NCBI GenBank assembly: GCA_017405265.1
Contig: JAFRAS010000005.1
Span: 1-64,000 of the forward strand
Length of the DNA stretch: 64,000 nt
Origin: Candidatus Saccharimonadota bacterium
GTDB lineage: Bacteria > Patescibacteriota > Saccharimonadia > Saccharimonadales > Saccharimonadaceae
Direction of reading: 5' to 3'
Shown here: in pieces, positions 19,701 to 30,040 of the stretch
How the letters are laid out: every line of letters starts with the position of its first letter
Numbering within the stretch: the stretch's first letter is position 1
The notes under the pieces: model-generated
Told to the model about the DNA's origin: nothing
The model's input: only the letters and a program-made list of their open reading frames with translations
Database searches by the model: none
Made by a program: the position numbers and the translations under genes

Positions 19701-19788
19701 GCACCCGTGGTGAAATTTGGTATACACGCTACCTTGAGGTGGTAGTGGCCGAAAGGCTGTGCTAGTTCGAGTCTAGTCGGGTGCACCA
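19701..19788 (+). tRNA. tRNA-Leu(GAG)
   Basis: An 88-nt class II tRNA with a long variable arm and encoded CCA. Acceptor GCACCCG/CGGGTGC, anticodon stem CTACC/GGTAG, loop TTGAGGT (GAG), T stem CTAGT-type arm. The last 16 bases are overlapped on the other strand by the end of the cation ATPase gene. Confidence 0.93.
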
Positions 19789-22328
19789 ACAGAATCGTCT
19801 TTCGACGATTTTTTTGTTGGTGCACCCGGAACTTCGTAAACGGGTGCACCATGAAAATCCCCTTGGGATTTTTTTGTTGCCAACTTATATATCTCCACCA
19901 ACGCCAACACACTCAAAGCGATCAAAAACAAGATAAGAAGATGTGCCGCCGGCACAGGAGATATTTTTAATATCTCCGAAAATACCGGAATTTCGCTCAC
20001 GAGAATCTGGAGCAAAATCGAGCCGATAAAGACGAACGGGACGAGCTTATTCGAGAAGAACCGAATCGAAAACGCCGACTTTTTCTCGCTCCGGCAGTTG
20101 AAAAGATGAATATTCTGAATAAACACCATAAGCGCCATAATATATCCCCGTGCGAGCTCCGTTTCGAGCCCCAAACCCCTGAGTAGATACACCCAAACCG
20201 CGCTCACTACCGCCGCGATGACGACTCCCGAAAACAGAATCTCCAAAAACAGCTCTCGCGAAAATATCGATTCTTTCGGGCTGCGCGGCTCCTCATCCAT
20301 AATCCCGCCCTCGGCCCGCTCAAAAGAAAGCGCAAAATCCTGCAGCCCGTCCGTCACGACGTTAAGCCAGAGTAGCTGAATCGCGACAAGCGGCATCGGC
20401 AGGTCGAACAAAATCGAGAAACAAAAGAACAATACCTCCGCCAATCCGCAGGACATTAAAAACAGCACAATCTTCCGAATATTCGCATACGCAATCCGCC
20501 CCTCCCGCACCCCGGCGACAATCGAGCAAAAATTGTCGTCCACGATAATCATATCCGCCGTCTCGCGCGCAATGTCCGTCCCGCTCCCCATCGCGACGCC
20601 AATATTCGCCACTTTAAGCGCTGGCGCGTCATTCACCCCGTCCCCCGTCACCGCCACGAACTCGCCCTGGCGCTTCAGCGATTCGACAATCTTGAGTTTT
20701 TGAAGTGGCGAAACTCGCGCAAAAATCGTTTTCTCGCGCACAAATTTATCAAACCTCTCCTCGCCCCGCTCAATTTCCGCCGCCACTTCCGCCCCGCTCG
20801 CGACTTTAGAATAATCATCAACGAGCCCGAGCTCTCGCCCAATCGAAAACGCAGTTAGAGGGTGGTCCCCCGTAATCATCAGCACTCGAATCCCCGCCTT
20901 TTTGCACTCCGCAATCGACCCGACCGCTTCTTTTCGAATCGGGTCAATAAACCCGACCATTCCCGAAAACTCCAAATTTTTTATATCATATATGGTATAT
21001 TTCCCCTGTTTTTTCACCTTCCCACACGCCAGCGCAATCACGCGATACCCTTCTCGCGCCAGCCTCTCATTTTGCGCGTCAACCGCCTCCGGTATATCTC
21101 CACAAAACCCCTTTACTACCTCAAGCGACCCCTTTACTGTGCAATAAACTTCACCGTCTCGTTCAAAAAACACCGCGGAATATTTATTCTCCGACTCATA
21201 GGGCACCGTCTCGAGAATTTTCGGTGCCGCCTCGACGCCCCCGAACTTCTTGAGCAGCACCTTAAACGCAATATCAATCGAATCCCCGACCGGGTGCGCA
21301 CCCTCGATATTCGCTTCATTATTAATCGCCCCAAGCATCGCGACTTTCTTCGCCCGCTCGGGCTCCTCCCCGACGACCTCGCCCGAAAAATCGTGCCCCG
21401 TCCCAGTGATTTTATATTCGCTCCCGTCCGGAAGCAAAATCACTTTCGCAGTCTGTTCGTTCACGGTGAGCGTCCCAGTCTTATCCGACGCAATCACCGT
21501 GCAACTCCCGAGCGACTCCGCCGCCTTGAGCCGCCGAACCACGACATTTTTCTTCGCCATCCGGTTCGAGGCAATCGTAAGCGCCATCGTCAGCGCGAGC
21601 GGCAACCCTTCCGGCATCGCCGACACGGCGAGCGCAATCACCGAAAGAAAAATCGTGCCATGCGGCACTCCTTTCGAAAAAAGCAAAACCGCAACCAAAA
21701 TCCCCACCACTAAAATAATCGCACTAATCTGTCTGGACGTCTTTTCCATTCGAATCGTGAGCGGCGACTTCTCTTCTTTTGCATTCACGAGACTGTCCGC
21801 GATTTTTCCAATTTCCGTGTCCACCCCAATACTCGTAACCACCGCCCTCGCTCGCCCCGTCATCACTATCGTCCCTGAAAAGAGCTTATCGTCCTCAGCA
21901 CCTTTCTCCACCGGCAGACTCTCTCCAGTCAAAATCGACTCATCCGCCGTCAAGTTGTGCGCCTCGAGAATATGTAAATCCGCCGGGATTTTGTCCCCCG
22001 ACTCCAGCATCACTTCGTCCCCCACCGCCAAATCCTCCGCATCAACCATCACCACCTCGCCCCCGCGCAGCACCCTTACCTTCGTCTTAATCAACTTCGA
22101 CAGCGAATCCGCGGTTTTATTCGCGCGATTTTCCTGATATGTCCCCATAATCGCGTCAACTACAATAATAAACGCAATCACCGCCGCGTCAACATATTCT
22201 CCCGCGACAATCGAAAAAATAATCGCCGCGACAAGAAGTAAAACCATCGGGTCCAAAAATTCCTTGAAAAATATTTTCAAAATACTTTCTTTTTTCTTCG
22301 AGGGAAGGACGTTTCTCTGCGCTGCCAT
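19773..22328 (-). CDS. P2-type cation-transporting ATPase (Ca2+ ATPase-like)
   Basis: P-type pump with ten predicted helices. The actuator loop is LTADESILTGES, the metal-site helix SAMPEGLPLALTMAL (PEGLP, as in P2A Ca2+ pumps), the phosphorylation site SDKTGTLT and the hinge VTGDGVNDAPALK. The N-terminus is short: it begins at the RNVLPSKKKES step before helix 1 and lacks the usual cation-ATPase N region. An upstream MLM start is ruled out because the -10 box overlaps it. The last 30 residues, with three GAP repeats, are encoded by two terminator hairpins and the antisense of the tRNA-Leu 3' end, so the native stop was probably lost. Confidence 0.93.
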   Translation of the reverse strand: MAAQRNVLPSKKKESILKIFFKEFLDPMVLLLVAAIIFSIVAGEYVDAAVIAFIIVVDAIMGTYQENRANKTADSLSKLIKTKVRVLRGGEVVMVDAEDLAVGDEVMLESGDKIPADLHILEAHNLTADESILTGESLPVEKGAEDDKLFSGTIVMTGRARAVVTSIGVDTEIGKIADSLVNAKEEKSPLTIRMEKTSRQISAIILVVGILVAVLLFSKGVPHGTIFLSVIALAVSAMPEGLPLALTMALTIASNRMAKKNVVVRRLKAAESLGSCTVIASDKTGTLTVNEQTAKVILLPDGSEYKITGTGHDFSGEVVGEEPERAKKVAMLGAINNEANIEGAHPVGDSIDIAFKVLLKKFGGVEAAPKILETVPYESENKYSAVFFERDGEVYCTVKGSLEVVKGFCGDIPEAVDAQNERLAREGYRVIALACGKVKKQGKYTIYDIKNLEFSGMVGFIDPIRKEAVGSIAECKKAGIRVLMITGDHPLTAFSIGRELGLVDDYSKVASGAEVAAEIERGEERFDKFVREKTIFARVSPLQKLKIVESLKRQGEFVAVTGDGVNDAPALKVANIGVAMGSGTDIARETADMIIVDDNFCSIVAGVREGRIAYANIRKIVLFLMSCGLAEVLFFCFSILFDLPMPLVAIQLLWLNVVTDGLQDFALSFERAEGGIMDEEPRSPKESIFSRELFLEILFSGVVIAAVVSAVWVYLLRGLGLETELARGYIMALMVFIQNIHLFNCRSEKKSAFSIRFFSNKLVPFVFIGSILLQILVSEIPVFSEILKISPVPAAHLLILFLIALSVLALVEIYKLATKKSQGDFHGAPVYEVPGAPTKKSSKDDSVGAPD
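19778..19851. repeat. Three copies of the tRNA-Leu 3' end around terminator hairpins
   Basis: The tRNA end CGGGTGCACCAACA (19778-19791) is repeated inverted at 19815-19828 with a perfect 14-bp match, and CGGGTGCACCA is repeated directly at 19841-19851. The first pair encloses a terminator hairpin. The arrangement looks like a duplication and inversion of the tRNA end plus terminator. Confidence 0.85.
19793..19814 (+). terminator. tRNA-Leu terminator
   Basis: AATCGTC/GACGATT stem (19793-19799, 19804-19810), TTTC loop, then more T. It sits inside the inverted tRNA-end repeat and inside the ATPase frame on the other strand. Confidence 0.7.
19854..19875 (+). terminator. Second terminator after tRNA-Leu
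   Basis: AAATCCC/GGGATTT stem (19855-19861, 19865-19871) followed by T residues. Also within the ATPase coding frame of the opposite strand. Confidence 0.6.
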
Positions 22329-29009: not shown

Positions 29010-29032
29010 ATAGCGGTGGTCATTCCACTACA

Positions 29033-29104
29033 TTCGGTCCGGTAAGCGCTACGCGCTTTCCGTTCCGGCGTTCGTCGAGAAAAACGAATAAATTCGTCTT
29101 TCTC
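29033..29104 (+). repeat. Hairpins and partial tRNA copy upstream of tRNA-Lys
   Basis: TTCGGTCCGGTA (29034-29044) repeats the sequence at the tRNA-Lys 5' end (TCGGTCCGGTA, from 29112). AAGCGC/GCGCTT (29044-29049, 29053-29058) forms a triloop hairpin. A 28-base hairpin spans 29077-29104 with one mismatch (arms GAGAAA..ACGAAT and its complement). Confidence 0.7.
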
Positions 29105-29113
29105 TCCTCACTC

Positions 29114-29190
29114 GGTCCGGTAGCTCAGTTGGTTAGAGCACGAGCCTCTTAAGCTTGGTGTCGAGGGTTCGAGTCCCTCCCGGATCACCA
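29114..29190 (+). tRNA. tRNA-Lys(CUU)
   Basis: A 77-nt cloverleaf with encoded CCA. Acceptor GGTCCGG/CCGGATC (one G-U), anticodon stem CGAGC/GCTTG, loop CTCTTAA (CUU), T stem GAGGG/CCCTC. The CCA is also the first three bases of the outer stem of the following structured repeat. Confidence 0.93.
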
Positions 29191-29274
29191 CGAAATTGGA
29201 ACTTTCGCAAAGCGAAAGTTCATTTTTTTGCTTCGCAAAAAAATGCGACGTCGAAGACGTCGCCAATTTCGTGG
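29188..29274 (+). repeat. Four-way-junction hairpin element beside tRNA-Lys
   Basis: The outer arms CCACGAAATTGG (29188-29199) and CCAATTTCGTGG (29263-29274) enclose three perfect hairpins that touch each other without spacers. A: GAACTTTCGC/GCGAAAGTTC, 29199-29221, loop AAA. B: ATTTTTTTGC/GCAAAAAAAT, 29222-29244, loop TTC. C: GCGACGTC/GACGTCGC, 29245-29263, loop GAA. Apart from the three triloops every base is paired. The function is unknown: it could be a structured RNA, a terminator complex or a recombination remnant. Confidence 0.9.
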
Positions 29275-29275
29275 A

Positions 29276-29331
29276 AAGCCGAGCAGGCGATACATCTTTT
29301 CCGTAGGAAAAGATGTTAGAGCGCGAGGCTT
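29276..29331 (+). repeat. Additional long hairpin after the junction element
   Basis: ACATCTTTTCC (29292-29302) pairs perfectly with GGAAAAGATGT (29306-29316) around a GTA triloop. AAGCC (29276-29280) and GGCTT (29327-29331) can close an outer stem. It uses the same triloop style as the four-way element. Confidence 0.8.
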
Positions 29332-29363
29332 ACCAGAATTAGCCCCCCTTGCCAATCTCCCAA

Positions 29364-29369
29364 TATAAT
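29364..29369 (+). promoter_or_regulatory. Possible -10 box of gene 29384
   Basis: TATAAT without the TG extension, 14 bases before the ATG; a short leader without a clear Shine-Dalgarno. Confidence 0.4.
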
Positions 29370-29383
29370 GTATCATACTAAGT

Positions 29384-30040
29384 ATGAAACAGCGGATTTT
29401 ATTTTGCAACATTGGGTGGGCAAATAGCTATCATGGCGAGATGGACGACAAGCCCACCGGCGATGCTAAATATATCAAAGAGGGCGGAGTTGGGCACGAG
29501 ATCGCTAACTTTGCGCTATCTAATGGATTTTACTACGGATTTGTCGAAACAAAATCCGCAAACGGTAAGGCCTGGACTATTCGGATTGAGAATATCGACT
29601 CGTCTGCCGCGAAAGCGGAGAAGATAGACAACGTGCTGGTCATTTGGTGCGCGACCGACAAGAAGCGTGGCGGAAAATATATTATTGGATGTTATAACAA
29701 CGCCACCGTATACAGAAATCGGCAACCAGCACCGAGCGATTCCAAACGCGGTGAACTTTACGAGAAAGGAATACTCGAGACGGCCGACTATATGATTCTG
29801 TGCCGAGAAAATGACGCGGTCTTGATAGAATCCGAACGGAGGTTTTTCCGAGTTCCGACCGCGCGAACGGACGGATACGGATTTGGCCAGTCAAATTTAT
29901 GGTACCCCACAAAAAGTAACAATAAGGAATTAGAGGAATACCTGGATTCGGTTAGGCAATATATTAATAGCGAATCGAGCAGGGCTACCCGCATGACTGA
30001 GGCTATGGAATTTCTCCTTGCCAACTCCACAAAACAATGA
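29384..30040 (+). CDS. Unrecognised protein in the tRNA-Lys islet
   Basis: 218 residues, no signal peptide or membrane helix. Conserved-looking patches are ILFCNIGW near the start, GVGHEIANF (about 36-44), VLVIWCATDK (about 84) and the run IIGCYNNATVYRNR (about 100). From memory, this GW ... GHE.NF ... VIW.AT ... NATVYR pattern occurs in N-terminal domains of proteins linked to nucleases or modified-base recognition, but I cannot confirm it. Codon use is mixed and AT-richer than neighbours (TAT, ATA, AAT). It lies between the hairpin array and a pseudo-carboxypeptidase, in what looks like an acquired segment. Confidence 0.65.
   Translation: MKQRILFCNIGWANSYHGEMDDKPTGDAKYIKEGGVGHEIANFALSNGFYYGFVETKSANGKAWTIRIENIDSSAAKAEKIDNVLVIWCATDKKRGGKYIIGCYNNATVYRNRQPAPSDSKRGELYEKGILETADYMILCRENDAVLIESERRFFRVPTARTDGYGFGQSNLWYPTKSNNKELEEYLDSVRQYINSESSRATRMTEAMEFLLANSTKQ

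Follow-up and report, generated by a model that had tools for sequence, protein, structure and literature searches.

A perfectly paired four-way junction that starts inside the end of a tRNA gene raises the question of what kind of element would build its own stem from a tRNA. The junction lies behind tRNA-Lys(CTT) in a stretch of 64,000 nucleotides from a Candidatus Saccharimonadota bacterium, and the whole of this stretch is called the window here. An earlier note on this DNA knew of no named element with such a layout, and the junction has indeed neither an Rfam match nor a description in the open-access literature that was searched. The window contains no known Rfam family other than tRNA, and nothing credible is found at E<=5 in 29150-29400.

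The junction and the unit to which it belongs

Positions 29188-29274 fold into a perfect four-way junction, in which the outer stem and three triloop hairpins provide 11 + 10 + 10 + 8 = 39 bp in 87 nucleotides and no base is left unpaired at the junction point (Table 1). The outer stem and the CCA of tRNA-Lys(CTT) start with one and the same C. The fold and the tRNA call together confirm the earlier claim of a perfect junction with an outer stem that begins in the tRNA CCA. The hairpin lengths of 10, 10 and 8 bp, the absence of unpaired bases and the total of 87 nucleotides also stand, but the outer stem has 11 bp and not the 12 bp first given. G29199 had been counted twice, because 12 + 10 + 10 + 8 bp would require 89 nucleotides. 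Since the stability of the fold corresponds to z = -7.6 and 0 of 200 shuffles folded equally well, the junction is not due to chance.

The junction makes up only the left half of its unit. The complete element has about 145 bp (29188-29335) and consists of the junction, which we call the A module, and a second hairpin, the B module. The boundaries proposed earlier were too short by about 60 bases, and these are the bases that hold the conserved part, namely the second hairpin and ACCA. The general plan is tRNA...ACCA, A module (three hairpins with a CCA/TGG closure), B module and ACCA. With the surrounding 161 bases as the query, the genome from which the window comes yielded two relatives, which lie behind tRNA-Lys(TTT) and tRNA-Glu(TTC). 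In the tRNA-Glu(TTC) copy, the outer stem again starts from the tRNA CCA (CCACGAAATTAG ... CTAATTTCGTGG) and encloses three hairpins of other sequence, which are followed by the conserved second hairpin and TACCA. A copy at tRNA-Ala(CGC) is built alike, except that its B hairpin is doubled.

Table 1. Features of the element and its host tRNA gene, in window coordinates
Feature	Position	Strand	Basis or occurrence
tRNA-Lys(CTT), host gene	29114..29190	+	ARAGORN, Rfam RF00005
Terminal CCA of tRNA-Lys(CTT), start of the first strand of the outer stem	29188-29190	+	
A module, left outer arm CCACGAAATTG	29188..29198	+	fold; design common to 22/23 copies
A module, hairpin 1, 10 bp, loop AAA	29199..29221	+	fold
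Hairpin 1 followed by ATTTTTTT, intrinsic-terminator-like site		+	T-run in 18/21 parsed copies
A module, hairpin 2, 10 bp, loop TTC; the two T-runs pair with each other	29222..29244	+	fold
A module, hairpin 3, 8 bp, loop GAA	29245..29263	+	fold
Hairpin 3 followed by ATTTTTTT, intrinsic-terminator-like site		-	19/21 copies
A module, right outer arm CAATTTCGTGG, terminal TGG complements CCA	29264..29274	+	fold
B module (second hairpin)	29275..29331	+	covariance model match 29272-29335, 82.7 bits
B basal stem AAGCC..GGCTT	within 29275..29331	+	
B internal loop, conserved, GGCGATA / TTAGAGC	29286-29292 / 29316-29322	+	
B apical stem CATCTTTTCC/GGAAAAGATG, loop GTA	within 29275..29331	+	
ACCA, closes the element on the right and repeats the tRNA 3' end	29332..29335	+	TACCA invariant in all plus-strand B copies

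The compensatory base changes that the earlier note had proposed to look for are present in the B module, where 15 of the 17 pairs have changes on both sides. Pairing is possible in 90.7 % of the cells of the B alignment compared with 69.9 % in shuffles and at most 44.1 % in slid versions, although the alignment was fitted to the model and somewhat favors that structure. Among the copies, which are flanked by (T/G)GGAA and TACCA, hardly any change is seen in the internal loop (AGCGATA / TTAGAGC) or in the closing TACCA.

Distribution of the family and shape of the A module

A covariance model of the B module (R1) was run over 174 genomes of the genus, which is one of gut Saccharibacteria, and 15 of them are genuine carriers. 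Those carriers that have names are metagenome genomes of Candidatus Saccharibacteria, and several come from goat gut. All of the genuine R1 matches are downstream of a tRNA gene and on the strand of the tRNA, which is the only position in which the model found them. By our own count, the sites are 26 tRNA genes for nine amino acids (Lys, Glu, Ala, Pro, Ile, Met, Val, Leu and Arg), so that the copies at other tRNA 3' ends that the earlier note had proposed to look for do exist. It had also been proposed that the structure would be a chance remnant if relatives had nothing analogous; relatives carry such structures. A 16th candidate genome (G045) was rejected as a chance hairpin, and two loci (L043 and L060) were rejected as chance matches.

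A wider covariance model (R2) was run over 393 genomes from 156 genera of the order, and it found the element in none of the 155 other genera sampled; in two complete carriers, R2 had no matches away from tRNAs. The genomes are metagenome drafts, and two were read nearly whole besides the window's own genome. The tRNAs of the carrier sites all end in ACCA (A73-CCA). Overall, ACCA-ending tRNA genes account for 24/35 in the window's own genome and for 30/46 and 28/40 in two others, and the chance of an all-ACCA set of carrier tRNAs is 0.69^23 = 0.0002. Viral carriage was rejected, as the scores from the model showed that 38 pattern matches in viral contigs were due to chance, and no similar DNA was found in phage or plasmid records. 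No prior description of such elements was found in the open-access literature, for which coverage was partial; as far as could be found, this non-coding repeat of about 145 bp is previously undescribed.

The A module keeps its shape and changes its sequence. As judged by RNAfold, 22 of the 23 copies have the layout of CCA, three hairpins and TGG, mostly with triloops. The exception (L069) is able to form three hairpins, although RNAfold favors a different fold; L058 is included in the 22 after a short B behind its junction was set aside, and the parse of L097 lies three bases too far to the left. Together, A and B measure 124-148 bp at unrelated tRNAs, with one copy excepted.

A strict detector of perfect four-way junctions was applied to three whole genomes (2.05 Mb) with first-order Markov controls. 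The genomes contain 3, 4 and 4 such junctions (n = 11) versus 0 in the controls. Nine of the 11 begin at, or no more than 2 nt from, a tRNA 3' end, and the other two lie after a 5S rRNA gene and upstream of a 16S gene. The 5S rRNA gene (own genome, C6:545-650, L018) is followed by a perfect three-hairpin junction and a fourth 10-bp triloop hairpin, in a plan that is the same except for the missing CCA. Upstream of the 16S rRNA in genome G088 (C8:439-550, L232) is a three-hairpin junction with a short B-like hairpin (AAGGGCGCGTTAGCGACCTAC); the direct repeat ACGATGAAA is present on both sides, and the outer stem begins with TGAAA. Because similar units sit at 16S and 5S rRNA, the wider class does not target tRNAs exclusively.

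The A module, and only the A module, has a G+C-containing hairpin followed by a T-run on both strands, as in intrinsic terminators. Judged by sequence, it would be a two-way terminator. The earlier suggestion of a multi-hairpin terminator holds for this half of the element, where the T-runs follow hairpin 1 on the + strand and hairpin 3 on the - strand, but not for the rest. One might go further and propose that the unit is simply a bidirectional intrinsic terminator of stable-RNA genes that evolved in place, with an incidental hairpin downstream. The sites on both strands, which are kept in 18-19 of 21 copies, and the similar junction after the 5S rRNA gene would agree with this. We consider it improbable, as it leaves unexplained why the B modules are homologous and have a conserved internal loop, why ACCA at the end is invariant, why the copies cluster by genome and why their presence is sporadic; the covariation of B and its conservation apart from termination already weaken it.

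The stems of the A modules contain 796 Watson-Crick and 12 G-U pairs (12/808), compared with 229 and 15 (15/244) in the tRNA acceptor stems of the window's own genome (Fisher p 0.0002). Since G-U pairs are rarer in the A stems than in the acceptor stems, these results would suggest that the palindrome matters or arises at the level of DNA. This pattern bears on a second alternative, in which the unit is an RNA element of the tRNA 3' trailer: its UGG would pair with the tRNA CCA, the downstream ACCA would be a decoy, alternative pairings would control 3' maturation or termination, and the copies would be under selection. We regard this as unlikely. The rarity of G-U pairs better suits DNA palindromes than RNA stems, the few carriers have the element at few tRNAs each, and the orthologous tRNAs are fine without it; moreover, hairpin 1 and its T-run should stop transcription ahead of B in 18 of 21 copies. 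A function as RNA at the 3' end of the tRNA fits poorly, because the presence is sporadic and a terminator precedes B, even though the CCA is paired in every A module, either CCA can pair with TGG, the covariation is strong, the element is always on the tRNA strand and a second family (type V, see below) has inverted and direct copies of the 3' end of its own tRNA. The reading of the junction as a stable small RNA, which the earlier note had listed, is conceivable but not supported.

Signs of movement and possible mobilizers

Copies within a genome resemble each other (mean identity 0.711 vs 0.645 when shuffled, p 0.0002), and copies at the same tRNA show no excess of similarity (p 0.47); the element has spread within genomes. 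For example, a relic after tRNA-Lys(TTT) in the window's own genome is 95 % identical to the A module of the window over 55 bases. Occupied and empty orthologous sites are also found. When the tRNA-Met locus is aligned by its upstream DNA, the element is present in G088 and G220, and the sites are empty in G053, G018 and G204, where a T-run comes directly after the CCA. The tRNA-Met locus of G182 (upstream DNA 97 % identical) has a decayed remnant, both ends of which match the G220 element, and a different tRNA-end insert sits between the tRNA and this remnant. At tRNA-Lys(CTT), the element is absent in about twenty other genomes of the genus whose genes were read.

New units are stacked next to the tRNA, and A modules are lost or exchanged. 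At tRNA-Ile(TAT), G231 has an additional A+B unit between the tRNA and a B module that it shares with G088, and its older A module is cut down to the right arm, GGATTTTGGGG. At tRNA-Ile(GAT), G088 and G182 are 95 % identical upstream and 98 % identical in B, and their A modules are unrelated in sequence and equal in plan. In G171, one pair of copies shares A (93 %) and not B, and another shares B (95 %) and not A.

The junction is therefore probably the left half of a mobile repeat that is non-autonomous and enters tRNA genes with an A73-CCA end directly behind the CCA. A non-autonomous mobile repeat at a tRNA end was among the earlier suggestions, and the many copies, the many tRNAs, the clustering by genome, the occupied and empty orthologous sites and the stacking bear it out. 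It is possible that the four-way junction has a role as a cruciform or recombination site. Against a mobile repeat, copies could also spread when tRNA loci undergo gene conversion or when DNA is taken up from relatives, and the evidence for movement is a comparison of draft metagenome genomes in which no transposition event was observed. With the order CCA..TGG..CCA and ACCA at both ends, the target and the end of the element are inseparable when one applies the terminal inverted repeat and target duplication criterion of MITEs: a target duplication looks the same as a fixed element end, because the target gives CCA and the element ends in ACCA.

Several candidates for a mobilizing enzyme were rejected. 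A Y1 transposase (PF01797) is encoded by one of the 15 carriers, and mobilization of the IS200/IS605 type by a resident enzyme is unsupported, as 14 of the 15 are missing it. Reverse transcriptase genes are present in only seven of the 15 carriers, so reverse transcription is not required and was therefore rejected. Most carriers have a single housekeeping Xer-like recombinase, the same as in non-carriers, and this universal copy does not favor a dedicated tyrosine recombinase. None of these three families (Y1 transposase, reverse transcriptase, extra integrase) tracks with the element in the 15 carriers, and no gene-carrying version with the same ends, which would be an autonomous parent, was found among the loci read.

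If the element is a mobile repeat, its anatomy would fit the following scheme. The A module might be carried as a two-way terminator, so that an insertion would spare the tRNA and its neighbors. The B hairpin, as single-stranded DNA or RNA, would be recognized by the mobilizing enzyme, which presumably acts in trans and may come from the host or from a visiting element. The TGG between A and B could pair with either copy of CCA, that of the tRNA or that of the right-end ACCA, and this pairing may help to choose and restore the tRNA end. In this pairing, the TGG would resemble the guide sequences of IS200/IS605 elements.

Other tRNA-end inserts and comparison with known systems

The same genomes have further tRNA-end inserts of the plan X - a - X' - b - X, in which the target is thus present in direct and inverted copy. 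In the type V family (core GCGGAACTTCGTAAAC), the 3' end of the host tRNA is repeated in inverted orientation as X' and in direct orientation as X. Its sites are tRNA-Met in five genomes (G182, G059, G063, G216 and G154) and tRNA-Leu(GAG) in the window, where, at positions 19778-19850, a hairpin comes after the tRNA and then the inverted 3'-end copy, the core GGAACTTCGTAAAC and the direct copy (CGGGTGCACCA). Type V occurs in tandem at tRNA-Met in G216 (L202). A strict type V detector gave no matches, and a permissive X-a-X'-b-X detector was too noisy for counting.

Direct copies of the last 8 nt follow 4/35, 12/46 and 5/38 tRNAs versus 0.04-0.07 expected, in counts that include neighboring tRNAs with the same end, e.g., three Pro genes. 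These direct copies, and the inverted ones, would be expected if host processes such as replication template switching or recombination at tRNA 3' ends make the units, which homologous recombination or natural transformation then shuffles. The independent swapping of A and B and the lack of a mobility gene that tracks with the element also agree with such an origin. However, the homology of the B modules is genuine, and unrelated tRNAs have A+B units of constant layout and length, as would not be expected of by-products; accordingly, we believe that a host origin of the units is quite unlikely and prefer the mobile repeat.

Several other structures were noticed in these genomes. A type II unit, which is a simple CCA-anchored hairpin followed by a B-like hairpin (GGGCAAACTCGCGAGC..GCGAGCGAGGCAAACCTACCA), is found after tRNA-Arg(TCT), Glu(CTC) and Lys(TTT), at about 388-452 on the minus strand of the window and at C5:13200-13270 and C7:64984-65053 of its own genome. 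In that genome, tRNA-Ser(CGA) (C2:7270-7600, L012) is followed by a giant junction, with an outer stem of about 20 bp from the tRNA CGCCA and three hairpins inside, and by repeats of GGCTCTAAGCACCGAGGCTTCTCGC. The 3' end of tRNA-Ser(GGA), TCCTCTCGGCTCCGCCA, occurs in three successive copies that are spaced by tens of bases (C2:395-520, L012). Two more families of large intergenic palindromes recur there, TTTTTTCTCGGG..CCCGAGAAAAAA with a G+C-rich interior (C3:43, C2:74837 and C4:127920) and AAAAAATTCCT..AGGAATTTTTT with the interior GGCCGAGC..GGCCTGCC (C2:74998, C4:20960, C4:89271 and C4:204271). In the window, the start of tRNA-Lys with its leader (29109-29122, CACTCGGTCCGGTA) is repeated 78 bases upstream at 29031-29044 (CATTCGGTCCGGTA), beside a small hairpin; this may be a counterpart, on the 5' side, of the tRNA-end inserts.

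We tentatively suggest, with more doubt than conviction, that these inserts belong to one superfamily of the plan X - a - X' - b - X, in which X is the local target: CCA in the present element, as much as 10-15 nt of the host tRNA end in other families, or TGAAA at an rRNA leader. If this were true, the inserts would move by a mechanism that copies its target or base-pairs with it, and they would build arrays like those of integrons, in which hairpin cassettes without genes line up at tRNA ends. Such a mobile system would be of a new kind. The genomes of Saccharibacteria are tiny and seldom have DNA to spare, and yet structured inserts crowd the tRNA 3' ends in this genus. Here, a repeat uses the universal tRNA CCA as a strand of its own stem and keeps a junction while almost every base changes. 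It also turns over between genomes that are 95-97 % identical, and such a repeat would be a natural laboratory for hairpin-driven mobility. The mode of movement of REP, RPE and mitochondrial hairpin elements is only partly solved, and the element would make the movement of gene-less palindromic repeats testable. Annotators would gain a family that is missing from Rfam.

The element shares with intrinsic (rho-independent) terminators a hairpin followed by a T-run, on both strands; unlike them, it has the terminator as one of its parts, and termination leaves B and the spread unexplained. REP and GTAG- or CGTC-tagged repeats, associated with RAYT (IS200/IS605-like), are likewise short non-coding hairpins that are thought to be mobilized in trans as single strands, and the CGTC repeats have no dedicated transposase (PMC3733652). 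Unlike these, the element lacks a GTAG or CGTC tag at the hairpin foot, and the B copies are flanked by (T/G)GGAA and TACCA instead. It also differs in that it has about 145 bp and four hairpins, is tied to tRNA 3' ends with few copies per genome, and occurs in genomes that, in 14 of 15 cases, are missing the Y1 transposase gene.

Rickettsia palindromic elements, ERIC and the mitochondrial GC clusters, double-hairpin elements and RHE are, like this element, small palindromic repeats with no known enzyme, and RHE of sponge mtDNA reportedly spread in this manner. To our knowledge, none of the RPE, ERIC or mitochondrial elements begins its own stem with a tRNA CCA or keeps a three-hairpin junction amid sequence change. 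The tRNA-targeting integrative elements also use the tRNA 3' end as a target, regenerate it on the far side and accrete in tandem; the repeat differs from them in being two orders of magnitude smaller, with no gene or integrase, and in sharing only ACCA as the common end.

Finally, in integrons, the attC core motif is RYYYAAC/GTTRRRY at the ends of the folded site. These boxes are absent at the ends of the B copies, and an internal GTTAGAG fails at the final base. The element also differs from integrons in having no cassette genes. The carriers mostly have one Xer-like recombinase, as non-carriers do, and seem to have no integrase that is specific to them. Nevertheless, as in attC sites and cassette arrays, the last part of the unit is a folded hairpin in which unpaired bases are conserved and the apex varies, and new units enter beside a fixed anchor, here the tRNA, and push the older ones outward.
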